NCBI GenBank assembly: GCA_021018995.1
Contig: CM037586.1
Coordinates: 148,594,060 to 148,658,059, forward strand
From: Chloranthus sessilifolius
Taxonomy: Eukaryota > Streptophyta > Magnoliopsida > Chloranthales > Chloranthaceae
Direction: 5' to 3'
Length of the DNA stretch: 64,000 bases
The translations under genes and the position numbers were made by a program. Numbering within the stretch: the stretch's first letter is position 1; each line of letters opens with the position of its first letter. Shown piece after piece: positions 16,401 to 64,000 of this stretch. The notes beneath the pieces are model-generated. The model did no database searches. It was given only the letters and a program-made list of their open reading frames with translations, and was not told the origin of the DNA.

Positions 16401-19400
16401 AGCATCCATTCTTGCCTCTTGATTCTTCTTACTTTGAACCAGGATTAGTGTTCTCATTATATATCCTAAATAAATAAACTAAAAGCTGACAATATTTTTA
16501 CTTTGTCTAGTTTACCTACTATACCTTATATCATGCATGCCATCACCACAGGGTTAGATTTTGGTTTACCTTGCTTCATTATTCATTACCTTATTTTTGA
16601 ACCATTGTTTGTAGTGTTAGCACAATTTTATGAATCTCTTTGACTATCTTGGGATTGTTAAGAAAAGATGGAGCCTGCACATGCTATTCAAAGGAAAAAG
16701 TTATATATATTGCCTGAAACATGTCGACATAATTCAGAAGTTAAAATTTTTATTTTTGAGATAGAATATGCTCAAGGAATGGGAAAAAGAACTGGAAGGA
16801 TGGAAGATGTTGAAAGATATCAATTGACCAGAAAGGAAGCTAAAAAAATCGCGAGGATAGGTAGGAAGCATATGATAATTTGTTCGTCTGGTTGGGAACA
16901 AAGGAGGGGGAGAATGATATCTACAGCTTTCTAATCTAAGAGAGAGGAAAACTAGAAACCTTTGTTAGGTAAGGTGCTGACGGGGATGCCGACATCGTAG
17001 ACATCGGATATGGACCATTTCGTGTGTACCGACGTCGGAAGAAGTGAAATGTACATAAAAAATCGGCGAAAGATGAAAATTGGAGGAACCAGCAATTTCA
17101 ATCGATCGAAGTCCTTTTTCGATCGATTGAACGACAGCGAGAGGAAAAGCATATGTTCTGGAGTATATAATTTGATCGATCGAATTATATACTCGATCGA
17201 TCGAATTGAAAATTTGATCGATCGAGTTTCAATTTTGATCGATCAAATTTCTGCGGCGAACTTTTGAAATATGTTTTTCGATCGATCGAGTTTCACTTTC
17301 GATCGATCGAATTTCAATTTCGATCGATTGACTTCAATTTCGATCGATCGAAATTGCGCCGCTTATTTTTTTTTTAATTTTTTCTGAAATTCGAATTGAA
17401 CTTTTAAGGGCATACTTGTCCTTTTAGAATTTGTTTTAGGGTTTTATTTTCGTTTGAAAGGACTCCTATATAAGGTCCTTAAGTTAAACAATGTAGTCAG
17501 TTGATGATTAATGAAAGAGCTTTTGCTTGTGTGCTTGAGATGAGCCTCTACGAAGAGTGATTCTTCTTCCCGAGAAGGGTTTGGTGTGAAGCCAAGGGTG
17601 TGAAGCCCACAATTTATCCTTGTTTACGTTATCCTTTTAATCTCTCGTCCTTGCTTTAATTCAAACAACCTAAATCGGCCATCTCCCACCCAAATATCCG
17701 ACTCCCGAAATCCTAGCTTTACCCTAATCCATTGAGTCGATTCGATTCAACAACCGTAGATCCCAGTAGAGTTATTAAACCTTCCGCACCAAATACTCAA
17801 AGAAGATCAGTGATCCCATCATTGAATTGTGAGCGCCCTAATATGGAAAAACTTAGAGTTCTATCTCTAGGATCGATCCGCGCTGCAACCTAATGGATCT
17901 AACCCCCGGACTGAACCCATCTCGAATTATATGTGAGCCTCGAATGGAATACTGCGAACGCTAAGGTATTGGTTATATTTTGTGAGTTTTATTGTTTAAT
18001 TTAATTCAATTTAGTTTCGGCAAATCAATCATCGTATACACGTAGTTTAGGGTGCCGTCCTGCGTTAGGTGCATTATGGATGGAGATCAAAGGGTCTTGG
18101 TCATATTGTCATCATCATCACAACCTTATCCCATCTATTGGAGTTGATTTTGCAAGTCCTATTTCTCCATTCGTTTTTTATCAATGCTAAGCAGTGCTGT
18201 CAAAAGTAGCGCCTAGGCGCCGCCTAGCCACTAGGATATGTTTAAGACGACTGATCAACAAAAAAAAAAGGATATGTTTAAGACCTAAGTGCCAACCGCT
18301 TTAAGCGCTAATGAAAAAAGCGCTCGCTTTATGTTTCGAAGCCGGCGCTTCATGCTTAGAAGCAGGCACATTTTCAAAAATGCCTGCTTTTAACCAATTA
18401 ATATATGGTTTTATTTATTACAATAAGAGCTCTCTGTTTTATTCTATTTTTTGGCTCTCTTTAGCTCTCTGTTTTTTTTTTTTTATGGCTGCCTGCCTGC
18501 GTATGCGTACTTATACTTCCGCCGAATTTTTTATGATAAGTTGGTCACTATTAATTAGATTAGATTAATAGAATAAATGAATAATTGTGCTGCTCCTTAG
18601 TTTAAAATTCATAATTTAGCAAAGCTATCTTATGTTAATTATATTGAACAATTTTCCCCTCTTCATGATCATGATTTTAGGCAAAATTTTCACCACAATT
18701 TGTATAGGAGAGCTTCCTTTCCTTTTTCTTTTTGGTATTTTTACTTCAGGAGTAGCACCATTACTGACGGAGCAGCACCATAATGTGCATTTTTTTTGAG
18801 CAATCTCTTATATAAAATTAAATTAATGATGCATAATTGTGAGTGAAATATTAAATATTGTTAATCAACACATTCATATATATTAAATACTCAATGCACT
18901 AATGCATAATTAAATTAACCTATTCATATTTATCATTTGTATGGTATTATGTTACTATGGATTATGTGTTACAAAATTTATAAAAAAAAACAACCATCAT
19001 CTTTTCTTGATGCCTAGACCCGGCTTAGGACCCAAGGAGTTCACCGCCTAGAACCTGTCTGGCACTTTTGACAACATTGGTGTTAAGGTCTCTGTAATTT
19101 TGCAATCCTTCATGTCCCTTCTCATTGCTTCACTCTAAGTCTTCAATGGTCTTCCTCGTATCCTAGCGTCTCAACCCATCCTACTAGATCTATAGTTGGT
19201 CTTTGATGACCATTTCCAAACATTCTCAAGCAACGCGCTGTAATCCTTTATAGGTGCCACCCTCAATTTTTTTTTTATATATACTCGTTTTGAATCTAAT
19301 CCTTTCTTGTGACTCCATACATCCATCTTAACATACTCATCTCAGCCACATGTACTCTTATCTTCTTATCACTTGTTCATAGCCCAACATTTTGCACCAC

Positions 19401-21323
19401 ATAATATGGCAGATCTAACTGCCGTCTTATAAGATCGTCCCTTCAATCTAAGTGGGACTCTTGGGATGCACAATACTCTGCTTACTTGTCTTCATTTCAT
19501 ACAACCTGCATTAATCCTATTTGAGACGCCTTTTCTAATCCATAATCTGATTGTAAAGTAGAGCCTAAATAGCTAAATCTATGACAACGTGACACCAAAT
19601 GATTTTCTATTTTAACTAAATCTTCGTCCGGGCTATCATTTTCATTAAATTTTCACTGAATGTATTTTGTCTTTGTTCTACTAATTTTTCAAATCTCGAC
19701 TCCAAGGTTGTTCGCCATAATTATTTCTTAACATGCACCATGAAATCTCTTTGTATATGTTCAATCCATCTATGATTAGGGCAATAAAAAAGGCTCAAGG
19801 CTCCTTGATGCAGCCCAACTCCGCATGGAATTTATTCGTTTCTCCACACATTCTTACACTAGTTACCGCCCTTTTATACATGTCTTGAATAATTTAAATA
19901 TATAAGTTCGGGATGCATTTCTTCCTCAGTGTTCACTGGATTATATGTCTCGGTGGCATTCTATCCTACAGTAGTTAATTTTATATTTAATAATTGGTAT
20001 ACGTTGAGAAGGATTTGGTGTAATCAGCAAGAATAATATGGTAGCTTATATATGCAACTTTGATGATTTTCAGTCGTTTATCTTATTACTCAGCACGCTT
20101 ATAGTATATTTTTAAAAAAGTATTTTTATTCCGTAAGTCAGTAGGTGTCCTATTCTCCTTTTGGTGTTTTCTTAACACTTTGTTTTACAGAGTAGTTCTT
20201 GCCCCATAATTATAGCCTACTGGCATTAATATTAGACTTTATTGAAAACTAAACAATGATATGTCAACTGATTGAAATGAGTTCTGGGTTTGAACTTTAA
20301 ACTAAGGAGGCAAAATAAATACCCTGTTTTGGAAGGAACACCAACCTTTAGCAATGTTTTAAGATACAGATTTTATCTGGTCTATTGCTTCCTTGGGAAG
20401 CGTAGTGCTTTTATACAATTTACCTGTATGTGTTTCCTGTTATTATGAATAGCTGTTCAAGCACTTTTCATTTGCAAAATTGTTACGGCTCCTCATGTTC
20501 ATTATTTTTTCTCTATGGTTTGCAGGAGCCACCCCAAGGACATTACAAACGTGGAGTTTCATCGTTCATATCCTCTTTTTGCTTCGTGCTCTGATGACGG
20601 TACAGCATATGTTTTCCATGGCATGGTTTATTCAGATCTCAACCAGAATCCTCTTATCGTTCCTTTGGAAATTCTCCGGGGACATTCAACCACAAATGGA
20701 AGAGGTCAGTGTTCTATTAATCTGTTTTATTTGTGATCCAGCTGTCATTAAAGAGAAGGTTTAAACGTGAACACAATCAACTTTCTAGACTCATTTGAGC
20801 AAAATTGTGATTCACATGGATTTCTTAATGATTGGCAATTGACCTGTCAAGGGAGAGCTTCTAATGCGACAAATCTGCCTCCGGTCTTTTTTGTCTCTAT
20901 ACCCCCCTTTTCCTATTATATCCGTTCATATGGCTATACATGATGGAATCCATTGCCGGATAGTTTGGGAGGTATTGTATGAAAACAGGAGCTCCTTCAA
21001 GATCCGTGAGTTCAAATCCAAGATCATGTGGCATGTGGTCCTATAACAACACCCGTTTTTGGTGCACGAGCCACATGGCATATGGTCTCAAGTCTTTTGG
21101 TTTTGGGGACTTTTTTTCCCTTCAAAACGCTGGTCAAAGTTTGCCTACTGCCCACCTAACCTGGTGTTTCACCTTTGTCCACATTTTGGACGGTGGATAT
21201 ACACCCTTTTTTGGATGGACTTGGTCGTCCTTGGGCAACTTTCCATGGCACCTGATTCCCTGGATGGGTGCCATGTGGACCCCACCTGGTTCATCCATGC
21301 GTTTGAACCCATATCCATGGCCT

Positions 21324-21413
<90 letters not shown>

Positions 21414-23614: not shown

Positions 23615-24959
23615 GGGCCTGTTTGGTTTCAAGGGAAACAATGGGAAATAAGGGAAAACTTATATGCGCCAAATGAATTGTCGAGATTTTTGTTGTTTGG
23701 ATGACATCTGAAGGGTTGGAAATTATCTTCGCATTTTTCGTCAAAATTTGAGAACAAATGCCGAGAGGTCCCTCGATTTTCTATCTTCCGACCCATCGGA
23801 TTTCTCATCCGTACGACTCTTCTCACCCTTTTAGTAATACCACATAATTTATTCACGGACGAAAACCATTGACTGATTTGAATGAGACGATGGAAATTGT
23901 TTTTTTTTTTCAATCTTCCTCATAATAGACCTTAAGATCATGACGCCTCTATCAGATGGTCTGATGCATGGATCAAAATATCGTCCGATACCGATACGTA
24001 TCGGTATTGGACTAGGACGATACTGTACATTGATCTACCGTATCGTCCAATTTGTATGGGAAGGCCCGGACGATACTAATGTATCGTCCGATAAGTTACT
24101 ATTCCGATAGGTATCGTCCGATTCGTATCGGTTCGGAGCTCGGACGATACGTATCGGAAACGCGGGATTTTGACCCTTGGTCTGATGCTGATTCTATATG
24201 GCACACATTCTCAAAAATAAGAGGCAAAGTCACGTTATGACTTGGGTGGTCAATTGACTACCCAAACTTTCTAAAAATTTGTTATTAAGCTTTAGGGGTC
24301 CTAATTTATATCAGTGGATTCTCATCCATTCAAAATTATCTTGACCACCATAAAAAATCTTCAAACAATTTTTTTTATTGTATTTGCTTTCATAATAAAT
24401 ATTTTTTCTTTGATATTTTTTAACTAAATCTCACAAGTTTGGCCTATTTTTAAGCTCCCCTCCATATATTTAGGTGAGATTTCTCTTATAAGGGCTTTAT
24501 AGAACTATATACTCACATATATGGTGTATATGCTCTATTATAATTAATTAAAACAAATAAATAATTTATTACACATAACAAGGTTTGAACTTAGAACCTA
24601 AACTTCACAAAGTACCAAGTCAACCACTAGAGCAATTCACTATGATATGTAAGGAGAAAAAAAAACCTAATACATATATATAATTTTTTGGTCATTTTTG
24701 TCTATTTTTTAGTTTGGATGATTTTTGTTGTCTTATGACTATTTTTTTGTTAAAATATATTATTTTCCTATAATTTCCTGCATATCTATCCAAATATAGG
24801 ATTTGGTTAATCCTGCGTTTTCCCAACTAGCAATGCGGTTATCCAAACAATGGCAAGCAAAGAAATTTCATGGTTTCTTACAACTAAGGTATCCATGAGA
24901 AAATATAAGAATATTATTTTACTTTCTCATGTTTCCCGTGTTTTTATCCAAACAGGCCC
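23615..24959. mobile_element. PIF/Harbinger-like non-autonomous element with nested insert
   Basis: The ends are inverted: GGGCCTGTTTGG on the left and CCAAACAGGCCC on the right, followed inward by GGGAAACA on both sides. TAA flanks both ends (left at 23612-23614, right at 24960-24962). It has no transposase. It contains a smaller element at 23968-24177. A second, reverse-oriented copy of its right two-thirds is at about 57216-57894. Family is inferred from the 3-bp TAA site. Confidence 0.7.
23968..24177. mobile_element. Small Mutator-like MITE nested in the PIF-like element
   Basis: Flanking TGGTCTGATGC is exactly repeated at 23957-23967 and 24178-24188, an 11-bp duplication. The ends are weakly inverted (GGATCAAAATATCG against GGGTCAAAATCCCG). 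The interior is rich in ATCGTCCGATAC/CGTATCGG motifs, common in plant MITEs. A related end, GGATCAAAATATCG, starts the element at 53488. Confidence 0.75.
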
Positions 24960-25689: not shown

Positions 25690-26024
25690 ATTGTGGTCCT
25701 TTGGTCAAGATTGTATGGTCAATAGGCGCAATTCGGTTGATTGCATGAGCAATTGATCCAATTGCTCCACTAAATAGGATGACAGTTGATCAGTAGACCT
25801 TATTTGGGTTGACCATGAGCAGTTGAATCGATTTTTGAAAATTTTCATATAAATACGTTCTTATTTATGCCTTGAACCCTTTTCGAAATCTACAAATCTC
25901 ATAGTGGCATTTCATCTTTAAACACAGAAATGGGCATTTCATCTCATAGCGGCTTTGTTTGCTTAAAAACAGATTTCTAAGGGGTAAAAAATATTATTCT
26001 TGTGCTTGTGTGATGTTATTTTCT

Positions 26025-27531
26025 AGGGAAATTCACGGATCGGTCGGATCTTTAGTTTCATATTTAAAGCCTGATCCTTAGGTTAGCAAAATGCCCAAAC
26101 TACCCCCTCTTTTTAACACACAAAAACATCATCTTCTTCCTCATTTTAATTTGGTACAGTTTTTAAAAAGATGGCGTCTTCTCCTCAATCAAACTATTCG
26201 ATCTGTTGGATATACCTTTTAAGAGATGATTAGAATGAGAAGAAGAGATATACTATAATTTAAAATTTTAAATATTTCATTTTTCTATTTTTACGATGTG
26301 AAGCGAGATCTATTCCGATCCAAACTATTTGGATCGGACTGAAAATACATCTTTTAAATGGCGAGATTAGAATGAGGAAGAAGAGGATACACCTATATAA
26401 TTTAAAATTTTAAATATTTATATTTTTCTATATTTACGCGATATGAAACGAGATCTATGCCGTCTGATTTAAAGGCTACAATATAAAATCGATAGTTCTA
26501 AAGGCAGATATGAGAAAAAGGCGATATCGACTCTGTACAAAGTCGTCATTGACTCTGTACAGAGTCGATGGCGACTCAATACAGAGTCGTCATCGATTAC
26601 ATTAAAATTTTTAAATTTTTTTTATATAATCGATGACGACTCAGTACAAAGTCGTCATCATTTTTTTTTTTAATGTAATCAATGACGACTCAGTACCGAG
26701 TCGATGACGACTCTGTACTGAGTCGTCATCGATTAAATAGTTTTTTTAGAAAAAAAATTTATTATTATTATTATTATTATTATTTATTATATATTCGATG
26801 GCGACTCTGTATAGAGTTGATGACAACTTTGTACAAAGTCGATGACGACTCTTAAAATGATCGGTATCGACTATGTACGGAGTCGATATCGACTGTGTAC
26901 AGAGTCGATATCGCCTTTTTCTCATATCTATCTTTAGAACTATCGATTTTATATTGTAGCCTTCAAATCAGACGGCATAGATCTCGTTTCACATCACGTA
27001 AATATAGAAAAATGTAAATATTTAAAATTTTAAATTATATAGGTGTATCCTCTTCTTCCTCATTCTAATCTGATACCGTCTCTGACGAAAAAGGTGTATT
27101 TGGGTTGATCCAAATAGCAGCTTGGAATAGTTTGGATCGGAATAGATCTCGTTTCACATCGCATAAACATAGAAAAATGCAAATATTTAAAATTCTAAAT
27201 TATATAGGTGTATTCTCTTCTTCCTCATTCTAATCTGCTACAGTCTCTGACGAAAAAGGTGTATCTGGGTCGATTCAAATAGCAGATCGAAATAGTTTGG
27301 ATTGAGGAAAAGACATCGTCACCTTCGCCACCTCTGACTTTTAAAAACTGTACCAGATTAAAATGAGGAAGAAGATGATGCTTTTGTGCGTTAAAGAAAG
27401 GGGGTAATTTGGACTTCTTGCTATCCTTAGGGTCGGCTAGGCTCCCAGCTGGTCGATTTGGATAAAGGTGAAAATATAGGGCCTTTGACGTAAAAGCTGT
27501 ATCTGACAGGGCCGGTCAGGTAAATTTTCCT
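26025..27531. mobile_element. Long foldback DNA element with palindrome array
   Basis: Two arms of roughly 500-600 bp are inverted copies of each other. The left arm has CGAGATCTATTCCGATCCAAAC and AAACGAGATCTATGCCGTCTG; the right arm has their reverse complements, though near-duplicate blocks repeat within each arm. Outer ends AGGGAAATTCAC and AATTTTCCT pair loosely. ATTTTCT is repeated at 26018-26024 and 27532-27538. There is no coding. The whole could form a long hairpin RNA. The superfamily is unclear: Mutator-like or foldback. Confidence 0.75.
26529..26907. repeat. GACTCTGTACAGAGTC palindrome array, 22-bp pitch
   Basis: Copies of the 16-bp palindrome GACTCTGTACAGAGTC, with variants, start at 26529, 26551, 26573; at 26638; at 26687, 26709; and at 26803, 26825, 26847, 26869, 26891. 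Within each group every step is 22 bp. Most sit inside TCG...CGA flanks. An ATT trinucleotide tract lies at about 26758-26790. Confidence 0.9.
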
Positions 27532-27538
27532 ATTTTCT

Positions 27539-28127
27539 ATGCATTGATTTGTTAGATCTAATTGATTTAATTTTTAATAGCCTACTCATTACTCACCCCC
27601 GCCTTAATTTCCATGTAGACCCACTAAATTTTATTTCCATTTTCTTACATAGCTATCAAACTATAACAATTGAAAACTAAATATCATTTTCACACATAAT
27701 TACATTTCAATGTAATCAAACAATACTCTTAGAAATTCCATGTTTATGATCGCTCCCCATGTACTATAATATTGTTTTGCAAGTTTCATGGTTGCTGTAT
27801 TATATGACCACATTACTCCGGCTGACACCCAAAACATGTATTTGGTTCCGCTTGGGTGCACCATATTGACTCCCATATATGCGTAGGGTACCTCTAGTTG
27901 CACTCACCTGCTTATTAAAAGTGCCTACTTAATCATGTCCTACAGTGTAGTGGGCACTAGTCCGCACTTTTAGTCATTAATTTGTGGCCGCTGACAGAGG
28001 TATCCATAAGTGCATACACCTTTGGGTGTGTAAATTTACCATAACGCTAAGGGTTATGATCATGGCTCCGAAATCTGAGAAGTCTTGGACATGGTCAATA
28101 CCGAGATGTCTCCACGGTACAACGTGA
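27539..28127. other. Non-coding stretch, nothing recognised
   Basis: AT-rich sequence with no supported gene or element boundary. Confidence 0.4.
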
Positions 28128-29806: not shown

Positions 29807-30142
29807 TTATGGCAAATGATTCTAAGAGTGCTATTGTTTTTAGCGAAGCATGCAGCATAAAGTCTGCTATTTGGTTGGCCTTAAATTTTCGTGAGGATTT
29901 TTTGCCTATCAGATATTTGGGGGTTCCTTTATTTGCTTCATGAATGAATTAGTCATTGTGTACTCCATTATTGTAGAAAATTCAAAAGCGTCTAGAGAGC
30001 TGGAGAGGGCACCTCCTATCTTATGTTGGACGTCTACAACTCATTAAGTCGGTGTTAAGCAGTTTTCATATTTATTGGTATGGGGCCTTCTGTCTCCCTA
30101 ACAGGACTATAAGACAAATAGAAAGCATCATGTGTAGATTTA

Positions 30143-32829
30143 TGTAACAACCTTGAAATCTAGAACACGAACCTGACTATTTCGATCTACGTGCCCGGCA
30201 TAGAAATCGAGATAGATTTAAAAATTTAAAATTGATATTAGTTAAGATAAAGTTGCACCATGGTTAGATGAGTTCACACGTGCATTTTCGCTTAAGTCTG
30301 AGTTGTGTAGGGTGTCAACGTAGTACGTTGCGCCGTAGCGAGCGTGTTTGTGCTCCACACCGGAACATAAACTAAGGGAAAACAGAAATATCTGTTTATT
30401 AGCTTATAAGAGAAGGAAGGGAGACCTAGAGAGAGTTCTTCTTCTTCTTCTTCTTCTTCCCCTTGCTCTAGAAGCTGAGAAATCTGTAGTTAGGTTGGTC
30501 TGTGAGAGTGTTCTTTGAGAAAACGGGGTTAGTGGTACCTGAGGTCCTACATTGTCCGAGATAGAGGATGGAGAGATGAAATAGGACACTCCACAACTAG
30601 TCTAAGAGTATGTACGGTCTTAAGGGTTGAAAAGGAACTGGTCGTCAACTTATCCGAGCCGTAGCGACAATAAACTCCGAGAACTGGATCCGAAACCCTC
30701 ATCCGGATCGATTTGCCGAAACCTCGAGAGGGCCCAAACAAAGGTGAGTCTGTGTGTTTAAATAGGGGCAAATGAGAAGCCCATATATGTGCATTGATTG
30801 TGTGTTAATGGTTGTTGGGAACCATTAATGAAAATGGGTTGAAATAGGGTTGGAGATGACCTCCATAAATGACAGAGCTTCTGTCATTATTGATCGATCA
30901 ATGAAGGTATTGATCGATCAATGACAGGTGGTGATCGATCAATAAAGACCATTGATCGATCAATCTGTATAAGACAGAAATGGGAACAGAAACCTTGAAA
31001 TTCTGGAAGTTCAGTGCTCGAAGAGCATTGATCAATCAATTTAGGCATTGATCGATCAATCCTGGGTATTAACCGATCAACGAGAGGGTGATCGATCAAT
31101 GACAATTGGTGATCGATCAACAAAGGTATTGATCGATCACTGGAGTGTATTGATCGATCAATGAAGGCATTGATCGATCAATCTGTATAAATAGTTAATG
31201 TGAACAGAAGGTGAGAAATTTTGAATATAGGTTATTGATTGATCAATGAAGGCATTGATCGATCAACAAGAGGCATTGATCGATCAACCAAAGTGGTGAT
31301 CAATCAATTTTAGCTGTGTTAGAAGTGAAGAGAAAAGAGGTTATTGATCGATCAATGAGTGTATTGATCGATCAATGATGAGTAGTGATCGATCAATAAG
31401 GGCTATTGATCGATCAATTGACTATGTTCCTGGATGAAAGCTAAAAGGGTATTGATCGATCAATGGGGTTATTGATCGATCAATAAGAGGTATTGATCGA
31501 TCAATAAGAGTGGTGATCGATCAATCACCCCTGTTTTGATTTTATGAGTTAAACACCACCGGACATTGTGCCAGTTAGCATTCTGACATCTCTGACACTT
31601 AAAGTACTATGTTTATGGTCTAGGATCAAACCCTGACACCTTGAAAGGCTTTAGATTTGCTTAGAAGATGTTTTGACCTGAGGTAGGGGAAAACCAGCCT
31701 AAACTATTTTTGAGTATGATTCCATGTTTATTTCATATCTATGCTCTGATTTCTGTTTTTAACAAGCATGTATGCATATCATAATTCCTATCTTTGATTT
31801 CAGTTTCCTGATTCGTATCCTGAAACCTGCTTCTGATTTCTGCTATCTGATCTGTGAGGTATATATGTATGCGATTTGATGATTTAAACCAGATGATCCC
31901 CACCGACCCGGCGGTATATCCGATGCCTGGCACACTTGTGCATCTGCTTGTGATTCTCGGCGCAATTGCACTCCATAGATGAGGCATTATTGTACTTTCA
32001 AAATTGTTCATATGAACGACGATTGGTTGGGGTTTCCTATCAGACATTCCTGTTTACTCCGTGCTATATAGTCACGGGAGTTTCTTAAGTTAAACATACA
32101 CAATTTAAGCTCTCTGATAATATACTTGCATAACATCTGATTTCTTGCCTAAAAGCTCAGTATTTGATTTGATTCGTCATGATTATACATTTTTGATTTG
32201 ATTTCTGTTATGAGATAGCATGATCTGCATATTCAATTCATTTAGTTGGAATTCTTCTATTGAGCTATGATGTAGCTCACCCTGCTTTCTAAATCACTTT
32301 TAGGTTCTGAGGCTGTAGCTCCCGACACTGAGAGTGACCCAGATTACCAGCTTGACCTAGAGGCTGAGGTCGAGGACAAGGAGACGGACATTCAGGCGGA
32401 CGAGTTCTATCCGTAGCCTGGGTACTTGAGTCCGATGTGATGTATTTTGATATTTTGGATTATTGTGTGCCTAGTGGCCACTTTTGTATATATTTTTAGT
32501 AGAATTACTTATTTTATTATTTATATATTCTATTCGGAACCACTATCGGGAACCATTGTTTGGGTGATGGATGTCCATCACCAATGGTTCTTCTTGGTTC
32601 CTTTTTGAGAATGCGTATTCTTTTGGCATATATAGAACTACGTATTTGAATTATTATTATTCTTTTATATTAAATGCATCTTAAGATGACTGACTCGACC
32701 TACCACTGCTGGATAGTGTCTGCTTGGTTTCCGCTATACGAGCAGATACTTCATGATTTGTCCCGGGGATCATCCAGAGAATGATCCTGATGGCACGAAT
32801 TTCCGGGCACGAAAATCCGAGTTGTCACA
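30143..32829. mobile_element. Solo LTR of a Ty3/gypsy-type retrotransposon (fossil)
   Basis: Ends are TGTAACAAC and GTTGTCACA, inverted with one difference. Both flanks carry ATTTA (30138-30142 and 32830-32834), a 5-bp target duplication. The LINE reading resumes cleanly across the site. There is no internal region or second LTR, so it is the product of LTR-LTR recombination. Length is 2687 bp. A CACCGACCCGGCGG patch and the long size suggest a Tekay/Del-like chromovirus, tentatively. It carries the palindrome array at 30890-31524. Confidence 0.88.
30890..31524. repeat. TTGATCGATCAA palindrome array, 20-21-bp pitch
   Basis: Cores TGATCGATCA begin at 30891, 30911, 30932, 30953; then 31029, 31049, 31070, 31089, 31110, 31130, 31151, 31171; then 31236, 31256, 31277, 31297; then 31345, 31365, 31386, 31407; then 31453, 31473, 31494, 31514. 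Steps are 20 or 21 bp (one of 19). Groups contain four or eight members, separated by linkers of about 30-70 bp. Spacer sequences vary. Confidence 0.95.
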
Positions 32830-39700: not shown

Positions 39701-39940
39701 TTGAGAGTTGTATCTCAATTGATTGACTGATACACTATATATCAATTCGAGAATGAACATAAAATGTAACACATAAAAAACAATCCGATTTCATTGATTT
39801 TTAAGATTTGATTACAACCATATGATCCCGCACTACAACAAACTACGATTAATCCTACCCAAAAATAAAATTCAAAACACACCAACCAAATTAACACTAA
39901 ACATGAGCAGAAAATAAAAACACTAAACAAACACTAGACA
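36785..39940. other. Athila 3' non-coding region
   Basis: Between the env-position ORF and the 3' LTR lies about 3.1 kb without a supported gene, as is usual in Athila elements. It starts (element sense: ends) with the G-rich polypurine tract at 36785-36797. It contains palindrome pairs near 38436, 38505, 39478, 39619 and 39694. Confidence 0.7.
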
Positions 39941-48302: not shown

Positions 48303-48391
48303 CAATCGATTGACTGTCAAATAAATGCACAAATCTCTTTCCGAATTAATCAAAATTTTGCCGATTTTCTTCGGCAACGACGCCAAAAATT

Positions 48392-49744
48392 TGATCGATT
48401 TTAAGTTTAACCCTTGCAAGTGCACAAAATCTATTGTAGCACGGTAAGAACAGAGGTGTCGAACCCACAGGGAAACATAAAATTTATCTAATTCTTTCAA
48501 AGACTTTAAAACACCCAAGGAAGTACCAAGGGAGAAATTCAATTTACCACACAAGTACCAAACGATTTTCAATGCAATAAAAGAAAACTAATCAAACTAG
48601 GACGGAACAAATTATGATAAAGGAGAAAAATGACAGTTTATAAACTGATCAAGGAGTTAGCTAACCATCGATTCGTAACTTTTCTACCATTCAATCTCAC
48701 AAATTTATTTTAAGTCAAAACACCATCATTTATTAGGACGCGACTATAGATCCGGCATATCCTATCTAAAAACTATGACTCAGCCTATCATTGCAGTATG
48801 AGTCATGTAAAAAGGATATCATATCTCAATATCTTAAGTCACGGCAATGATAAATCAATCATTCTGCAGCCTAAATCGGCCTGCAGGAACAGATCTAGAT
48901 GGAGTGCTTCTTTTACGGTCGTTGATAACCACAGTCACCGACTGTAAACGAAGACTTGATAATATTCAACCACGCACACACTTATAACAGAATGATTCAA
49001 TGACAAAACCATAAAATCGTAGAAACAATAATAAAACAGTTACTTATTTTCGGTTCGCTTCCTCCTTGAGCAAATGACTTTAGCCACTCATCCTCGGTAT
49101 ATAAACCCGTTGTAGATCCGAAGACATCATTTTAACAATGCTTTTTTATTTATCACAAAATCTCCTTACAATGTTTTTGTTTCTAAGTACAATCTATGCT
49201 CTTACAATTATAAAAAAGAATTAAAAAGAAACCCTAATACAATCTATTGAGAGAAAGAAGAACCAAGAAGAAAACTCAAAAATTCAATCTCCCCCAATAA
49301 TATCCAAAAATAACGATTAAAGAAAAAGCTCCTTTAAATGAGTCGTAGCTTCCTTTTTATAGGGCCGAGCAAACCCTATCCCTAATAGCCTCAATCGATT
49401 GAGAAAAAAATCTCAATCGATTGACTTTGAATTCGAAATAAGAGAGGGCAGACTTGTCTTCTCCTGTCAATCGATTGACACTTATTCCTCAATCGATTGA
49501 CATCCAGGGGTAAATTCTACATTCTCTTGGTGGATGTTGCTTCACGGATTTTGATGCTTCTTTTGACCTTTTTGTCCATAACCCTTGTGTAGTCTTTAAT
49601 TAAATTCTTTTATGCTTTTTAATGATCCAACGGTCAGAAACACCTGTAATAATTAAAACCTCATAACAACCATCAGATGCTTTCATTAGACAGCTAAATG
49701 TAGGGAATAGAGTGCGAAATATAGTCACATTTCAGCACTGATCA
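48392..49744 (-). repeat. 5' LTR of the Athila element
   Basis: 1353 bp, the partner of 35411-36784, with the same TGATC/GATCA termini. Palindrome pairs are conserved at about 49391/49413 and 49467/49489. Confidence 0.95.
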
Positions 49745-52537: not shown

Positions 52538-52605
<68 letters not shown>

Positions 52606-54505: not shown

Positions 54506-54645
54506 TAAAACATTTTACAAATAATCCTTGTTTTGTAAATAAGTCAAAAGTTGACCATTATCTCATCCAAAGATGACACCATTTCTGATCCCCCTATATA
54601 TAGGGTTATGTTCCTATAACAAAAGAACCGTACAAATAAAGATGG

Positions 54646-55365
54646 CTAATGGCTTGAGAATGTTTCAAGTCCAAAAACAATCCCAAAAACTTTCAGGACA
54701 CCATGGGTGACTAACATAGCCAACCAACCACCAAAAAGGACCCTAATCATAGATTTTCCCACTTCTTGTGTGCCACCAACCACAGCCCCTGCCGCACCGA
54801 ACCCTCCCAAACCCAAACTAGTCACTGCATAGACAACAACTAGGCGCACCCACCAAGCCTTTATGAACCCACCCGCCAGCAAAGGCAAAACGCCCCCTAG
54901 TGTAAAAGCCAGAGCCGAGGCCCCTGCCGCCTTTAAAGGGCTCGGAAGGCGGGCCAACTCCTCTTCACTTGCCTCTCTTGCTCTCTCTATCTTCTGCCTC
55001 TCCATTTGAACCACCTCAATATCGTACTGTGCGTAAACTGACACAAACTCTCCAATGGCCATACTACATGCACCAGCGACTACGCCGGCGAGTCCCGATA
55101 CAAGCATTGCTTTGGAGGTTGCGGTCACTGCGCCAACGCCGATCATGAGAGAGGTGATGGACACAAGCCCATCGTTGGCTCCGAGAACTGCGGCACGTAG
55201 CCATTGGGCCCGCCCCAAGTAGTCCAAAGGATTTGCTTGGGTTTGCTCTTGCTCATGAGTTTGGGCTTGAGGAAATGATGCTGGAAGTTGAATGAATGTT
55301 TCTTGGTCAGATGGGGGTGGTGGAGAGGGAATTGCATGAATTTGGTAGTTGACACTATAAGACAT
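54646..55365 (-). CDS. Vacuolar iron transporter-like protein (VIT/CCC1 family)
   Basis: An intact single exon of 239 aa starting MSYSVNYQ at ATG 55365; upstream in-frame codons have no ATG. A variable N-terminus (1-60) is followed by the CCC1 core: YLGRAQWLRAAVLGANDGLV, SLMIGVGAV, AMLVSGLAGVVAGACSMAIG, EFVSVYAQYDIE, then a short charged loop (QMERQKIERAREASEEELARL). Three further hydrophobic segments follow to residue 235. That gives about five membrane spans. The loop is much shorter than the metal-binding domain of VIT1, so it fits the VTL/nodulin-21 subgroup, which moves iron (possibly manganese) into the vacuole. The intronless structure matches that subgroup. Substrate is inferred from family only. 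Confidence 0.95.
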   Translation of the reverse strand: MSYSVNYQIHAIPSPPPPSDQETFIQLPASFPQAQTHEQEQTQANPLDYLGRAQWLRAAVLGANDGLVSITSLMIGVGAVTATSKAMLVSGLAGVVAGACSMAIGEFVSVYAQYDIEVVQMERQKIERAREASEEELARLPSPLKAAGASALAFTLGGVLPLLAGGFIKAWWVRLVVVYAVTSLGLGGFGAAGAVVGGTQEVGKSMIRVLFGGWLAMLVTHGVLKVFGIVFGLETFSSH

Positions 55366-55430
55366 GATATGCTTAGGAGAGAGGGAGAGAGAAAGTATGT
55401 GGGGCAAGGTATTGTGGAGGACAAACGATA

Positions 55431-55440
55431 TCTATATATA
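55431..55440 (-). promoter_or_regulatory. TATA box of the VIT-like gene
   Basis: The minus strand reads TATATATAGA about 70 bp upstream of the ATG at 55365. This would give a short 5' UTR of about 35-40 bp containing a GA/CT-rich stretch. Inference from position and sequence only. Confidence 0.6.
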
Positions 55441-57026: not shown

Positions 57027-57215
57027 CTTGCATCCCTGAAGAGCAACCTCCACTCTCATAAAGTATTAATTAAAGTGAGTTTCTAGAAAAACAAGTTGGA
57101 TGTTGACTTTGACTCTTGGCATATAGAACAAAATAATATAAGCAAAAAGTCAAATGTTTTTGGTACGCACAAAACGTGCACATTAATTGATGAATTACAT
57201 AAGAAGAAGACTTCT

Positions 57216-57894
57216 TACATTCCTGTTCGGATAAAAAATACAACACGAAAACGCCAAAAAGTAAAATAATATTCTTATGTTTTTTTTTTTTTTTTTTTTT
57301 TTATATTAGATACCTAAGTTGTAAGAAATTATGGGATTCCTACGATCTTCTTTAATTTTTGTTATTTGGATAACTACATTGTTAGCTGAAAAAACATAAT
57401 ATTAATCAAATCCCGTGTTTGAATATATATGTAGGATATTATAGGAAAATAACATATCCTAACAAAATTAGTGGTTAACTTAGTTCTTTGCGAAGATTAG
57501 GTTTTAGATTTAAACTTTGTTATGTGTAATAAATTATTTATTTATTTTACTTAATTATATTAGAGCATATACATCATATTTGAGAGTATATAGCTTTACA
57601 ACATAGTAGAGCCTATTATGAGAGAAATCTCTCCAAAAATAAGTCCGTGTAACACTTAAATAGATGGAAGAGAGAAAAAAAAATCAAAGAAAAAATATTT
57701 GTTATAAAAATTAATACCATAAAAAAAATTGTTTGAAGATTTTTGATAATTTTAGATGGATGAGAATCCACTAATATAAATTAGGACTCCTAAAGCTTAA
57801 TAACAAATTTTTAGAAAGTTTGGGTGGTTAATTGACTGCCCAAGTCATAACATGGATCTGCCTCTGATTTTTGGGGATGTGTGCCATATAGAAT
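57216..57894 (-). mobile_element. PIF-like element copy, interrupted by the Mutator-like element
   Basis: Reverse-complement match to about 24190-24950. Landmarks include GTTCGGATAAAAA with AAGTAAAATAATATTCTTAT, TTATGTGTAATAAATTATTT, GAATCCACTAATATAAATTA and GTGTGCCATATAGAAT. The match stops abruptly at 57894, exactly where the next element begins. The remainder presumably lies beyond the window. Confidence 0.75.
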
Positions 57895-58229
57895 TAAGGA
57901 AAATTTGCACTTTCGGCCCTATATGTTTGCGTATTTGCAGAAACGGCCCTATAGTTTCAATCCTTGCATAAATGGCCAGCTCCAAGCCTAGCCGCGTGCA
58001 CGTCAGATATCTATATATATGCTTCTCTATGCAAGCATTGAATCTAGAATTTTTGTATCATCTTTTAACAATTTTTATCTCTCTTAGAAAGCGATTTCGA
58101 GATTCCACTAAAGGTCGTATAACATAGAGAATACAACAGGCTAGGTAAGATATCGAGTACAATATTTTTTAAGTTATTGTTTTCCCAATTTCTCAAAACA
58201 TTGTAGGCAAGTCCAAGATATATAAGTTA

Positions 58230-58312
58230 TCGGTCGATATCTTAAGATATCGTCCGATATCTTAATTTATCGATCGATATCTTAAGATATCGACCGATAT
58301 CTTAAAAGGTTT
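58230..58312. repeat. ATCGRYCGAT palindrome group, 20-bp pitch (MULE left array)
   Basis: Four units ATCGGTCGATATCTTAAGAT-like follow each other at exactly 20 bp: central palindromes ATCGGTCGAT, ATCGTCCGAT, ATCGATCGAT, ATCGACCGAT alternate with ATCTTAAGAT-like palindromes. Degenerate copies continue to about 58430. Confidence 0.9.
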
Positions 58313-58559
58313 TTTTTTTTAGTTTTTGGATTATGGTTTACGTTAAAAGTCCATCCATCGGCTATATATCTTAGGATATCGGCCCGATATCCTAATATCT
58401 TAGGATATCAAGCGATAACCTATGATTGACAAAAACTCTAAAGTTTTCATTCCTTTAATTTTTTTAATAATATTTTTAAACAATTGTAGCGCTAAGTCAA
58501 GTATAACTCTTTATAAACAACTAATTTTAATTTTAATTTTGTAAATATTGTAGGTTGAA

Positions 58560-61224
58560 ATGGATGTTCCCCTTCTTTGCCATTTTGATTTCGTACGTGT
58601 GAGAGAAAATACTTACAATGGAGGACATCGGAGGATTGTCACTGTCACGGAGAATATATCATTTGATGAGTTTATAGAGAAAATGTACAAAGTCACTTGG
58701 ACACTAATTTAAGAACATTCTATTACACTATCGCTTCATTACGCATAGGAATGAGCTTGTATTTGCCGAATTGTTCCGACTGATGATCTTACAAACTTAT
58801 TTAGAGCATATCGGTGATGGTGTATAAATATTTATATCGAAAAATCATTAGTCACTACTGTAGAAACATTTCAACCGTTTAAGGAAACAAACGAAGATGA
58901 TCATGGTGTGGGAACAGAACATTTGATTGAAAATCAAGGAATACGGTATGAAGAGGAGAACATTGTTGCACCGATAATAGCCGACGATGATAGAAATATA
59001 AATATAGGATTTCGCCCCTACAGTAAACTTCCAGAGCAACCCTATTCAGACATTCCGATGAGTGAAGGCGATGAAGATCAAGGATATTCTCATCAAATGA
59101 ATCCGATGCATGATACATCTCAGTTCAACTTCGATTCGGTAAATCAGTGGGAAACGTTTTTAGTCGGCCTTAGTCCATATCAATGGCCTTCCGAACAAAT
59201 AGCTTCGGAGCCAACGATAATCGAGCCTTCAACAGAACAGCCTCTCATACATCAAACATTCCCGCATCGGCTAACATCAATCCAAACAACTGCACATCAA
59301 CCAAGCGTACATCGACGGGCTCAATCCCAATCACGTAATAACCATCCAGTCGATGACGGTGATAGTGATCCTGAAAATAATGAAGCCCCGCCGTCTCCCA
59401 CTTCGCGTGTTTATACTAATAGGGGAATTGATCAACCTCTGGTGGACGAAGACTATCAGCTTAATGACTCGGAAGGAGAGTATATGGATTCGCGATGAGA
59501 GGCGTATGAAGGGGAACGATTACCATTGAGCGTTTAGAAATAAGAAATCATTTCAAAAGTTCTTAAAGAATTTGCGATGACAAATAATTTTCGATTAAAC
59601 CAATAAAACCACCTCTTCGAGTAAAATCGCGAGGTGTGCTGAAGTAGGATGTGCTTGGCGAATACATGCATCGAAATTAGTAGGCGTAGACACGTTTGCT
59701 GTGAAAACTTTCCATCCGGAACACACGTGCGGAATGCTAGCTTTTGGAAGCGGGCATCGCCAATGTACGACATCGTGGATAGCTTCATTCGTTAGAGATA
59801 AACTATTAAAGGGTTTTGACGAGACTCCTGCTTCAATAATTTTTGATATTGAAAAAAAATACGGTATATGAGAGGTTCTTGGAAAGCATGGTGAGGAAAA
59901 GAACTGGCGTTGTATGTCATCCGAGGTAGCTGCTCGTTGCAATTTATGATGTTACCGTCATATGTTGTCGAATTACAGCGGGTCGATCCAGACTTACAGA
60001 CCGAATTGTGTCTCGAGTCTGATAAAGCATTTCAGAGATTCTTCGTGGCATTCGGACCTTGCATTCGAAGCTTCGTAATACTTACTTTACTAAGAATAAT
60101 TATGCGGTAGATGGAACGCATTTGGGACGATATAAGGGAGTGTTGTTAATAGCTACGGGGATGACGGAATAGACATTTATTTCCTATAGTGTTCATTAGA
60201 AGAAAATGAAGACCATTGGACATGGTTTCTTGATCTATTAGGGAGACGTGTAATCGGTGAATTTGAAGAACAATTTGTTTTGATATCAGACAGACAGAAA
60301 GGTTTGATGGAAGCAGTGGAAATTTTTTTTCCTAATGTCTTTCACAGCTACTGTATGTGACACCTGGCTCTAAATCTGTTTGATAAATATAAGGATACAA
60401 TCTCTAGACCGCTTTTCTGGGTTGCTGCCCGTGCATTTTCAGAAGCAAAATTTAAAAGAATTATGCGAAAAATAGAAGACGACGCCCCGCCGGAATGTAC
60501 AAAATGGATTAAAGAAATTGGTGATCATTTCTGGGCACGCGCTTATTTCCAAGGGAGGCGTTATGATATGTTGACAACTAATATAGCTGAAAACATAAAT
60601 AGTGTGTTGAAAATAGCTAGGGAGGAACCGATTGTGAGCATGTTAGAAACTATTCACACAAAAGTAGCCGAATTTTATTTTCGTCGTCAGGAGGAAGGAA
60701 ATAAAATGACACATGTGTTAACACCGATGGCAGAAAAACACATAAAAAGAAATTCAGGATGGGCCCGTCGAAAAAACGTCATACCATATGGTCGTGATAT
60801 ATTTCAAGTTAAACGTGGTGATTACACTCACAGTGTCGATCTAGAATCGCGAACATGTACATGTAGACGTTGGGCTATTCTTGGATTACCATGTTCACAT
60901 GTGATTGCCGCATTATCGCGCCGAAACAGAGAAAGAGAGATCCCCCAATTTTGTGAACCTTTGGTTTACCTGACTTATTTAGAAACTTATAAAGAACACT
61001 TTGTCCCGGTTGACAAGCGCCAATGGACTTCGCAAATAGAAGACATTCAAGTTTTGCCCCCCACAAAAAATACGTCCAAGCCGGCCGTCCGAAGAAAAGG
61101 AGAACAAGATCTAAAGGGGAAGTTCGACCACTACAATGTAAAAATTGTAATAAGTACGGTCATAATCGTCGCTCGTGTAAATTTGTTAATATTTGAAATT
61201 AACTTATATTACATCAAAGGTTGA
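58560..61224 (+). pseudogene. MURA-like transposase pseudogene
   Basis: Recognisable from ATG 58560 (MDVPLLCHFDFVRVRENT), with an open acidic stretch at 58908-59498. Next come a MuDR-type DNA-binding region at about 59530-59870 and the MULE core VDGTHLGRYKGVLLIATGM at 60105-60160. ISDRQKGL follows near 60285 and TTNIAENINS near 60580. A SWIM zinc finger (CTCRRWAILGLPCSHV) is at 60853-60903. A zinc knuckle CKNCNKYGHNRRSC lies at 61134-61175 in another frame. Stops in the 58.7-kb, 60.17-kb and 60.36-kb regions and frame changes near 60.19 and 61.07 kb make it inactive. The 60463-61224 frame is open. Full-length relatives are about 750-850 aa. Confidence 0.88.
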
Positions 61225-61544
61225 GATTGAAAACAGATTTAGATTAGATTAGACCTAGTGGCAATCGAGCTTCCAAATGATTTCATTATAGAAGAATATT
61301 TTTCTTTTTTCTCTTTTTCTTTCCTTCAATATAAACAGATTAAACCTCAATAAAAGAGCGATCAACATCTACCAATTAATTAATATATTTTTTTGGAATT
61401 GTGACTAAAATATATTGTTGTGCTTCTTAATAAATCATTCATTCATTCAAACAGGATTTGAAGTTGCCAAATTCGCCCCTAATCTTCTAGTGATTGGCAT
61501 AAAGCCAAACCAAAGATATCAGGCTTCACAATTCAGAAAGGTAT

Positions 61545-61956
61545 ATCTTAGATCATCGGCCGATATCTTAGATCATCGACCGATATTATCGGCCGATGAT
61601 TTAAATTATCGGCCGATGTTTTAAAATATCGGCCGATGATTTAAAATATCGGCCGATGATTTAAAATATCGGTCGATGATTTAAAATATCGGCCGATGAT
61701 TTAAAATATCGTCCGATGATTTAAAATATCGGCCGATGATTTAAGATATCGTCCGATAACTTAAAATATCGGACGATGATTTAAGATATCGGACGATAAT
61801 TTAAATCATCGGCCGATGATTTAAGCTATCGTCCGATTACTTAAAATATCGGCCGATAATTTAAATCATCGTCCGATGACTTAAATTATCGGCCGATGAT
61901 TTAAGATATCGGACGATGATTTAAGATATCGGCCGATGATATAAGTCATCGGCCTA
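61545..61956. repeat. 20-bp tandem palindrome array (MULE central array)
   Basis: About 20 units of TTAAAATATCGGCCGATGAT follow one another at an almost exact 20-bp period. The palindrome ATCGGCCGAT varies to ATCGTCCGAT, ATCGGACGAT and ATCGGTCGAT. The spacer is a second weak palindrome, GATTTAAAAT. It lies in the non-coding gap between the convergent transposase and protease genes. Confidence 0.95.
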
Positions 61957-62138
61957 TTGGAATTGCTTCAAGAGAGGAAGGCTCCATTGATACATTAGGC
62001 AAGGTGATACAAATAAGATAAATAAATTGATAACAACGATAATGAAAATTATACAAGTTAATAAAAATTAATAAAATTAAATAATTTACAATTTCATCAA
62101 AAAATATCTTTACAAAACACTAAATTTTTTTACAGATA

Positions 62139-64000
62139 TTAACTCTTCTTCCCAAACGTGCACATTCGATGTCCGATTTCGGCTCTAAATTGTTGCATAT
62201 GTTTATCGTCGAAATCAATAGGTCATTTGTTGGGAGAAGTATTCTATATACTTCAAAACGTATACACCGCAATCCCAACCGTTTTCTTGGATCGGGAGAA
62301 CGACACTGTTGAATGCCGATACCTTCCACTGTTGATCGAAAGCTGACTTCAAACCGATAGCGTAAAGAAGGCGCGGAAGGTGATTTAATAGACATTCTTT
62401 ATGCACTTCAAACCTTTTTGAGCACTCTCGGTCTGCTGGATCAATTAACTTAATTTCTCGATCAACTAATGAAATTATAGCCAACGCCCAATGGCTATGT
62501 TTTTGGCTATGCATCGGAAGATAAATCTACACATAAACGGAACCGAAATTTTAAATAATAAATTTTATTTAAAAGCCGTTAACGTTAAATAAAACGAAGT
62601 TTAGTATTAAAAAACGTACCATTCCACAGTCGATCGCGTGAATTCCGCGGATATTATTTGTCAATAGTGGTTCCATCGGCTTTGAATTGTTACGAACATT
62701 CTATTCGTCACAATAGGCCTGCCACCTATCGAGGTCGCTGAGCGCAGCTATACCTTCATTATCGATATATTTTTCAAATTTTTTCTCGTCTGCCATAAAC
62801 AAGGTCTGATTGGCCGCAAACAGTAGAAGAAGTTAATCAAGAGTCGTGATTGAAAAGACAAATAAAAGAAACAAACGAGCTTCCAATAAATATTTTGAAG
62901 CGAACCGACTTTTTTCGGCATTGGTAAACATTGAATCGTTTATAACTTCAAGGACTCTCAGTATCGCCGATGACTTCATTGTCGAACAACGGCGTCCTTT
63001 GAGAACCTTCAAAAGCAACTGTGATCTCAACACCGCTGATAGTATTAACGATCACATTGTCCTCGTTCTCCGGCCGATTCCAAAAACTAAGCATATACTT
63101 TTGCTCCATTGATATTGCCTCATCCTCCTCCTCCTCTACAACCAATCTTCGTTTTTTTATTAATGCTTTAGTGGTCGGAGACTTTCTCTTCTTACGAGCA
63201 CGCAAGTCATAACCTTCGGCTTCATTTTTTGTAGATGATAGTTTCACTATAATTGTTTTTAGTGGTGCTGTGACTCACGAGAAGGTCACAGAAGAGGAGC
63301 ACCATCATCACCCACATCAACCAAGGGTTGTTTAGTAGGCTGAGGAGCAGTAGGTTTTGGGGCAGCGGGTTTTGGGGCAGTTGATTTATTTGTAAGTTGA
63401 GGAGCAGTTGGTTTTGGGGCACTGGACTGATGGCTTTGTTGAGGAGCAGTGGGTTTTGGGGCAGTAGACTGATGGCTTTGTTGATGAGTGGTGGGTTGAG
63501 GGACAGTTGATTGAGGGTAAGTGGGTGAAGGAACGAAGGTGTCAAAGAGCACAGAGGTTAAAATATTTATCTGCATAATTGCAAAAAAATATCCATTACA
63601 AAAAATAGAAATAGAAATAAAACTGCATTATCGACCAATAATTTAACTAATCGGTCGATAATGTAAATAGTCGGTCGATAATTTAGTTATCGATCGATAA
63701 TTTACATTATCGAATCGACAATTTCAGTTAGTTTCATCGATATCAGAAATTATCGATCGACAATTTAAAATTCCGATAATGTAACTTATCGTCCGGTAAT
63801 GTACATTATCGATCGACTATTTAAATTATCGGTCGATAATGTATATCGTCGGACGGTAAGTTCCATCTACGGACGACAGGCTAATTTTGCATTAAGTTGT
63901 AAAGAAATGATTTTGTTCTAAATTTGAAAAGTCTTGGTTTGATACCTTTCTTAAATGAGAGATGACCGCATCAAGATCCTTCCGTATTGCTTTATTTTCT
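62139..64000 (-). pseudogene. Ulp1-like SUMO/ubiquitin-like protease gene in the MULE (C48), partial and probably broken
   Basis: The peptidase core reads HSHWALAIISL (catalytic His), KLIDPADR (Asp), then LPIQENGWDCGVYVLKYIEYF (in part; Gln and Cys), at 62215-62526. An intron at 62527-62619 joins DCGM to VIYLPMHSQ-like sequence (GTACGT donor, TGTAG acceptor). Upstream pieces include a basic region (RARKKRKS...KKRRL, EEEEDE) at 62948-63247, a Pro/Gln-rich repeat (QQSHQSTAPKPTAP) at 63286-63576, and an exon-like ENKAIRKDLDAVISHLRK at the window edge. A stop in the penultimate exon near 62.70 kb and a one-base shift near 62.22 kb suggest inactivity. Cellular Ulp1 enzymes cut SUMO; the role in MULEs is unknown. 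Confidence 0.78.
63631..63860. repeat. Palindrome groups, 20-bp pitch (MULE right array)
   Basis: TCGRYCGATAATTTA-type units start at 63631, 63651, 63671, 63690, 63710, then at 63789, 63809, 63829 and 63849. Steps are 19-20 bp. The palindrome is ATCGATCGAT with variants. It lies in an apparent intron of the Ulp1-like gene. Confidence 0.88.

Follow-up and report, generated by a model that had tools for sequence, protein, structure and literature searches.

In a 64,000-nucleotide stretch of the Chloranthus sessilifolius genome (the window), five transposable elements, A to E, each carry an array of their own short palindrome, and in all five neighbouring copies typically follow at a pitch of 20-22 base pairs (bp). 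A is long terminal repeat (LTR)-like, with borders not established, B is a foldback element, C a solo LTR, D a Ty3/gypsy-type retrotransposon and E a Mutator-like element (MULE). From the sequence we propose, with a probability of about 0.6, that the arrays are cooperative docking platforms for dimeric proteins, serving anti-silencing in the MULE and linked to promoters in the LTR elements. The arrays, or for D and E the whole elements, lie as follows, a few mismatches being allowed in the copy counts:

17098 to 17351, no strand assigned: array A, 10 copies of TCGATCGATCGA (at most 2 mismatches; 4 perfect), pitch 20-21 bp, in runs of 2, 4 and 4
26529 to 26906, no strand assigned: array B, 10 copies of GACTCTGTACAGAGTC (at most 4 mismatches; 1 perfect), within-run pitch 22 bp
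30890 to 31524, no strand assigned: array C, 24 copies of TTGATCGATCAA (14 perfect), pitch 19-21 bp
35411 to 49744, minus strand: element D, Ty3/gypsy-type, two LTRs 93.3% identical, 5-bp duplication AAAAA, 37 copies of TCAATCGATTGA (28 perfect)
57898 to 65963 (past the window end), no strand assigned: element E, complete MULE of 8.07 kb, 9-bp duplication TAGAATTAA, 34 copies of ATCGNNCGAT (27 perfect)

Spacings of 20-22 bp made up 73 of the 102 distances between adjacent copies (A 7/9, B 5/9, C 18/23, D 17/30, E 26/31). When sites were placed randomly in the same spans (5000 trials for each family; one LTR copy of D was set aside, leaving 15/27 of its spacings in this class), a mean of 0.8-3.2 such spacings was obtained and the observed value was never reached in any family. 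Repeated palindromic 10-mers in the window gave 12 word families, which overlap; ten Markov windows gave 0-2 each (four in total). The motifs are 10, 12 or 16 bp long and the spacers within pairs 6-11 bp, and the centre-to-centre distance is still about 21 bp. Copies are grouped in runs of 3, 1, 2, 2 and 2 in B, of 4, 8, 4, 4 and 4 in C, and of 4, 2, 19, 4, 1, 3 and 1 in E; D consists of 16 pairs, one four and one single. The original prediction had described five elements with private palindromes, repeating every 20-22 bp, commonly in pairs or fours and always in non-coding parts. The observation was confirmed: the five arrays hold 10-37 copies, pairs or fours prevail in A, C and D, the 29 internal D copies all lie outside gag-pol and the env-like open reading frame (ORF), and E has its arrays in four non-coding parts.

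A fixed short palindrome, a free spacer, a fixed distance to the neighbour and short runs are features that side-by-side symmetric dimers fit. Each array would then be a row of sites for a symmetric-dimer protein, in which adjacent dimers, two helical turns apart, could make contact, allowing cooperative binding. Selection would maintain a separate palindrome in each transposon family, with runs of two to four as the usual unit.

The palindromes themselves are apparently under constraint rather than in decay. The 29 internal D copies share 93.5% identity, against 30% in their flanks and 27% expected from composition; for the C copies the values are 92.6%, 38-44% and 28%. In copies picked by motif likeness, variant letters in palindrome and right flank numbered 12/348 and 130/232 for D and 12/288 and 92/192 for C, and in palindrome and flank 7/120 and 31/80 for A and 16/160 and 17/60 for B. 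Within the first two arrays of E (E1 and E2, 25 of the 34 copies), half-sites varied at 1/200 letters against 64/250 in the right flanks. E2 runs through 19 consecutive units without a skip, its half-sites kept and its centre variable, as expected for a dimer site. CpG is the most mutable step in methylated DNA, and the motif CpGs were kept in D (27/29), C (21/24), E1 and E2 (49/50) and A (23/30).

Comparison of solo LTR C with five of the nine related loci (L003, L007, L001, L028 and L005) gave palindrome mismatches of 3.1, 4.9, 2.4, 1.8 and 4.9%, against 8.0, 26.4, 25.9, 15.7 and 24.2% outside the palindromes. CpGs were conserved in the same order at 19/25, 20/24, 19/21, 20/23 and 17/23 sites within palindromes and at 40/65, 24/95, 31/91, 24/49 and 21/52 outside, the L003 comparison taken singly not being significant (p=0.23). 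Between the two LTRs of D, mismatches numbered 0/48 in palindromes and 68/1309 elsewhere, too few sites to count, and CpGs were kept at 4/4 against 24/36, the expected direction without significance. The suggestion that retained CpG palindromes hint at selection is thereby upheld by the diverged C copies and left without significant support by the D LTR pair.

A rival explanation is that the arrays act as hairpins in RNA or single-stranded DNA, either as a source of small RNAs or as a structural signal. Array C folds far below its shuffles (z -16.6, 20 shuffles), as does the array 5' of the env-like ORF of D (z -9.3, 100 shuffles), and palindrome clusters of maize Sireviruses are small-RNA hotspots (Bousios 2016, as cited in PMC10760457 and PMC5311732). 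However, strong folding is expected from any palindrome array. Among the D pairs, 14 of 16 were tested and seven were imperfect, and none showed the compensatory change that a hairpin function predicts; the letters are kept, beyond pairing alone. Moreover, with loops of 6-10 bases for every 12-16 bp, long duplexes would presumably form poorly. We therefore regard the hairpin explanation as quite improbable.

Palindrome arrays of the same pitch recur across the genome (2.17 Gb, 32 contigs). It was sampled in 20 stretches of 10 kb taken at even steps along contig C1 (200 kb). Perfect palindromic 10-mers formed eight clusters there, seven with repeated spacings of 19-23 bp; 72 of their 99 spacings fell at 19-23 bp and none at 24-32 bp, and five Markov controls gave no cluster. 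Their palindromes included CGATTAATCG, CGCTCGAGCG, CGGACGTCCG, CAATCGATTG, ATCGATCGAT and TGATCGATCA. When dyad words whose arms lie 0-4 bases apart were admitted, 15 clusters appeared in 9 of the 20 stretches, with 90/130 spacings at 19-23 bp, one at 10-18 bp and one at 24-32 bp; 12 of the 15 had at least two spacings at 19-23 bp. Mirror-repeat words and three Markov runs gave no clusters. The sample clusters are partly dependent, since those in L027 and one in L028 belong, by motif or homology, to window families C, D and E; two additional stretches, one each from contigs C2 and C3, held no further cluster.

Exact pairs within 30 bp, counted in the whole 2.17 Gb, numbered 22,664 for TCAATCGATTGA, 33,275 for TTGATCGATCAA, 1,921 for ACGGACGTCCGT and 18,336 for CGCTCGAGCG, TCGATTAATCGA and ATCGGCCGAT lying outside this count. 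The reversed words of the four, palindromic too and of equal base composition with differing dinucleotides, gave no pair. Among the first 50 plus-strand places on contig C1, a listing that is not random, spacings of 19-23 bp were found in 41, 44, 37 and 38 pairs, respectively, and remaining pairs stood at 40-42 bp, two pitches apart (6/6 for TTGATCGATCAA, 12/13 for ACGGACGTCCGT). The concentration of the pitch that the original prediction called for thus holds in both the genome sample and the listed pairs. Scans of viral contigs for D-type and C-type pairs gave none.

In a further explanation, such arrays would have arisen by neutral tandem expansion of a unit of 20-22 bp, in the manner of the minisatellites known from non-coding parts of retrotransposons. 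E2 is genuinely tandem, its spacers being 68-71% identical, and spacers are also conserved in the six-copy array of L027. Direct-repeat words formed four clusters in the sample, one of them the CGATTAATCG array, with 11/32 spacings at 19-23 bp. Non-palindromic 10-mers formed 46 clusters with 41/200 spacings at 19-23 bp and 27/200 at 24-32 bp, some of these clusters being, by eye, degenerate palindromes. Arrays C and D, however, are not tandem: the D flanks stand near background beside nearly identical motifs, constraint is seen between diverged C copies, and mirror-repeat words are cluster-free. Tandem expansion, proposed earlier as a check, is therefore real in E2 and absent from C and D, and as an explanation of the arrays it is very unlikely.

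Element E offers the most concrete candidate for a binding partner. Its terminal repeats are about 95 bp long and 94% identical, and it contains two genes and four arrays:

58229 to 58298, no strand assigned: array E1, 4 copies of ATCGNNCGAT at 20-bp pitch, 5' of the transposase gene
58554 to 61221, plus strand: pieces of the MULE transposase gene, with DBD_Tnp_Mut, MULE core and SWIM matches above cut-off
61555 to 61957, no strand assigned: array E2, tandem at 20 bp, 21 copies of ATCGNNCGAT lying between the convergent genes
62218 to 62526, minus strand: Ulp1 (Peptidase_C48) piece of the second gene
63630 to 63854, no strand assigned: array E3, 9 copies (at most 2 mismatches), between coding pieces of the second gene, probably in its intron
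63895 to about 65190 (past the window), minus strand: second-gene coding pieces matching the L027 DUF1985/plant mobile domain (PMD) protein
65384 to 65573: fourth E array, ahead of the DUF1985 part of the second gene

All four arrays are non-coding. PB1 and CCHC knuckle matches in the transposase gene lie under cut-off. Locus L027, a copy of E (88.7% identity across 2.6 kb), carries the second gene as a 435-amino-acid open frame with DUF1985 (E=2.8e-9) and plant mobile domain (E=1.2e-11) matches; the DUF1985 profile match is read in L027, and E matches this protein in three pieces at 72.5-90.4% identity. In the genome search for DUF1985, 150 of 4046 candidates were scored. The gene is laid out as a DUF1985/PMD part, a coiled coil and, in the window copy, the Ulp1 piece. 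Between E and L027, 16 synonymous and 26 non-synonymous changes over 271 codons correspond to a dN/dS (ratio of non-synonymous to synonymous rates) of 0.39, a value given without a significance test. A proline-rich stretch of the second gene (63289-63557, TAPKP type) derives partly from a 42-bp tandem repeat.

In VANDAL MULEs, the non-coding regions hold arrays of short motifs; VANC proteins bind to these motifs, and methylation is lost as a result (PMC5735166). VANC proteins have DUF1985 (PMC5735166) and DUF287. E resembles this system in its MULE transposase, terminal repeats, 9-bp duplication, DUF1985-related second gene and four non-coding arrays. It apparently differs in the protein: VANC combines DUF1985 with DUF287, whereas DUF1985/PMD, a coiled coil and an Ulp1 piece are found here, and DUF287 was not among the Pfam matches of the 435-amino-acid L027 piece up to E=10, the gene being in pieces. 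Since gene, array positions and element type match VANDAL/VANC, a VANC-type anti-silencing role is suggested for E. The likely ligand would be the DUF1985-related protein that E itself encodes, which is related to the anti-silencing VANC proteins; its binding to the arrays that flank both genes would hold the non-coding DNA of E free of silencing, much as VANC acts in VANDAL transposons.

The alternative is that one host factor, or one family of CpG-sensitive host factors, binds all palindromes and that the transposons converged on it. A core ATCGAT is common to A (10/10), C (20/24) and D (27/29 internal copies), all of which fit TYRATCGATYRA, and the tobacco Sirevirus Tnd-1 has the same core in its motif ACAATCGATTGT (PMC2829016). 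A CpG occurs in the 70% consensus plus flanks of 12 of the 15 sample clusters, against 54/238 solitary perfect palindromes, although the clusters include gapped words and flanks and the two sets are not fully comparable; two further clusters are of the TCAATCGATTGA type, with C or G under 70%. The half-sites of CGCTCGAGCG, CGATTAATCG, ACGGACGTCCGT, ATCGNNCGAT and GACTCTGTACAGAGTC differ, however, and E encodes its own VANC-related gene, so that a single host factor appears unlikely. The shared host-side cause of the original prediction is accordingly not shown, the clear candidate partner being element-encoded. Its cooperative-binding or anti-silencing platform, by contrast, stands as the leading idea on the strength of the constraint and of the DUF1985-related gene.

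In element D, the arrays lie in the LTRs, the leader and other non-coding parts:

36431 to 36540, minus strand: 3' LTR array, two 22-bp pairs followed after 30 bp by a TATA box
38436 to 38538, minus strand: 3' non-coding array, two 22-bp pairs
39478 to 39652, minus strand: 3' non-coding array, two 22-bp pairs
39941 to 41104, minus strand: env-like ORF, weak Transposase_32 (PF20167) match (E about 5e-4, under the Pfam cut-off)
41206 to 41708, minus strand: array 5' of the env-like ORF, 12 copies, of which eight form 22-bp pairs and four a run spaced at 22-23 bp
46687 to 47379, minus strand: gag, from the first ATG
47436 to 47696, minus strand: array 5' of gag, 7 copies
48280 to 48313, minus strand: array between 5' LTR and gag, one 22-bp pair
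49391 to 49500, minus strand: 5' LTR array, two 22-bp pairs followed after 30 bp by a TATA box

A TATA-like box stands 10 bp past the last copy of the 41206-41708 array, between it and the env-like ORF. The positions of the arrays, beside TATA boxes, within leader sequence and ahead of the env-like ORF, point to a promoter-linked role, and in the LTR elements the arrays would most likely be platforms for promoter-linked activation or anti-silencing. RNaseH precedes integrase in D; this is the gypsy order and not that of Ty1/copia Sireviruses. D is presumably Athila-like, the name Athila being that of the original prediction. By eye, one palindrome pair of the 3' non-coding part folds, together with spacer and flanks, into a hairpin that is almost perfect (38423-38482; arms of about 21 bp, 4-base loop), and a less perfect hairpin of the same kind lies at 38492-38550.

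Several observations weigh against the docking-platform reading. No element-encoded ligand was identified for A, B, C or D, and the VANC motifs (YAGTATTAY; AGTTGTCC/AC) are non-palindromic (PMC5735166, PMC10398659). In a search of the PDB, the match to VANC21 (E=0.24) was weaker than two coiled-coil matches to VipD (E=0.1), and for the env-like protein a fold predicted from its sequence alone gave no usable information (predicted local distance difference test score, pLDDT, 33). A TATA-like box follows within 150 bp of 5 of 12 array edges, two of these being the same LTR, and chance alone would place a TATAWA in 17-24% of stretches of 100 bp. Three of the 15 dyad clusters have at most one spacing at 19-23 bp (L011 1/5, L012 1/3, L013 0/4), and a sixth cluster in the window shows an E-type motif without the pitch. 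Gaps between runs lack a common helical phase, and E, locked at 20 bp, drifts relative to 10.5 bp per turn; the helical period that fits best is 10.6 for A, 11.4 for B, 9.9 for C, 10.9 for D and 10.0 for E. The pitch is a rule between neighbours, not a helical-face rule, and the earlier claim that all sites share one face of the DNA survives inside runs only. As for constraint, picking copies by motif likeness biases the core-versus-flank counts toward the core. The family C comparison omitted L004 and L006, while L002 and L008 overlap places that were tested, and its global aligner may pair non-orthologous palindromes and so inflate conservation. Between MULE E and L027 the mismatches, 2/68 in palindromes and 158/2415 in the rest, point toward conserved palindromes as well but do not differ significantly (p=0.32).

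The claim that no such system has been described proved too strong, given the Sirevirus boxes (PMC2829016) and the VANDAL/VANC motif arrays (PMC5735166). Sireviruses of the Ty1/copia group carry palindromic repeated motifs (RM boxes) in the LTR beside the TATA box and also upstream of env, and the motif is reported absent from classic retrotransposons of the Ty1/copia set (PMC2829016). The likeness extends to copy number, at least eight palindromes per element being present here (A 10, B 10, C 24, D 37, E 34), to an LTR cluster shortly upstream of a TATA box (30 bp in both LTRs of D, 116 bp in A, none within 150 bp in C) and to copies upstream of env (12 in D, at 41206-41708). It ends with the carriers, D being gypsy-type by domain order, E a MULE and C a solo LTR of other sequence. 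In PMC2829016, "spacing" and "helical" occur only in the reference list, and no description of a pitch was found. The short interrupted repeat cassettes of Arabidopsis are likewise short direct repeats with diverse spacers, some of the repeats containing palindromes, but they comprise 2-8 repeats, about 57% are without palindromes, and a common pitch is not described in the part of PMC10342631 used. Repeats of plant gypsy elements also form arrays in non-coding parts, but these are family-specific tandem repeats, not palindromes.

Already known, then, are the Sirevirus palindromic boxes with their small-RNA hotspots and the VANC target arrays. As far as searched, the new points are the presence of such arrays in both gypsy-type and MULE elements within a single genome, the common 20-22 bp pitch, the unrelated palindromes, the nearly constant CpG and the apparent constraint; a description of a common pitch across superfamilies was not found in open-licence PubMed Central full texts. 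Sirevirus boxes and VANDAL arrays have so far been separate stories. One spacing rule over unrelated elements and tens of thousands of site pairs in a single genome points to a shared physical mode by which transposon control regions are read and provides, in the pitch, a simple sequence signature for seeking platforms and their protein partners. How LTR retrotransposons escape silencing becomes a directly testable question.

A link to Transposase_32 proteins was found for one further palindrome. At L025, ACGGACGTCCGT boxes, partly in pairs at 20-22 bp, lie 5' of an ORF with a Transposase_32 match (3e-17). ACGGACGTCCGT resembles the RM of the Sirevirus Usier (GTCGGACGTCCGAC), and an array 5' of a Transposase_32 ORF is the Sirevirus layout, a likeness of motif and layout. 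The genome search scored 150 of 13,855 Transposase_32 candidates, and the ACGGACGTCCGT array was present at 7 of the 8 best loci fetched. At five lower-scoring loci, with 1.8 kb upstream, it was found in 1/5 at the same threshold and in 2/5 at a looser one. An array beside every Transposase_32 ORF was therefore rejected; the link is shown for one family, with one motif. L032, the lone array-less locus of the eight, has reverse-transcriptase-like sequence upstream (by eye), and its use as a sign of Sirevirus origin was withdrawn. The L025 protein had no match in the PDB and no BLAST similarity to the env-like protein of D, for which no homologue was found at E<=0.001 among 7996 candidates scored.

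A wider proposal would be that plant transposon superfamilies, gypsy and MULE in this genome and copia in the published Sireviruses, have each evolved CpG-bearing two-turn arrays that dock private, co-evolving anti-silencing proteins, DUF1985 proteins in MULEs and env-like Transposase_32 proteins in LTR elements, the pitch marking one kind of cooperative filament. We regard this as doubtful, L032 and the single array among five lower-scoring Transposase_32 loci telling slightly against it.

The remaining features of elements A to C and of the sixth cluster are as follows:

17467 to 17475, plus strand: TATA-like box, 116 bp after array A
23979 to 24156, no strand assigned: sixth cluster, TATCGTCC/GGACGATA including three ATCGTCCGAT, half-sites at irregular spacings of 14-36 bp
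26026 to 27530, no strand assigned: element B, foldback, 9-bp target duplication TATTTTCTA (26017-26025 and 27531-27539)
30143 to 32829, plus strand: element C, solo LTR with TGT...ACA ends and 5-bp duplication ATTTA

Weak WD40-type matches on the plus strand lie either side of array A (15158-20733), which may thus be located in an intron. B is presumably MULE-type, 9-bp duplications being a mark of MULEs. The left end of C is set by homology of eight loci (six places) beginning at 30140-30144, and the right end by the duplication and one place (L007/L008) where homology stops at 32832. One TATA-like box lies inside array C, with none within 150 bp past either edge, and just after the solo LTR a remnant at 33011-34156 gives a weak reverse-transcriptase-like (RVT_3) match. 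The sixth cluster is hosted by an element at 23615-24959 with the duplication TAA and ends GGGCCTGTTTGG...CCAAACAGGCCC, which we take to be Harbinger-like from its termini. A second Harbinger-like copy (57222-57894) is broken by the insertion of MULE E, which is nested inside it. Between D and E, a VIT1-family ORF occupies 54646-55431 on the minus strand.

Elsewhere in the genome sample, pairs of the non-palindromic TTAATCATAC, spaced by 22 bp, form part of a longer tandem repeat (L011:8893-9236, L013:3907-4143). Degenerate boxes near CCTNTCGANAGG and CTTTTCGAAAAG were seen at L018:6270-6680, L019:840-1460 and L019:6220-6460, and by eye they look like eroded examples of palindrome arrays.

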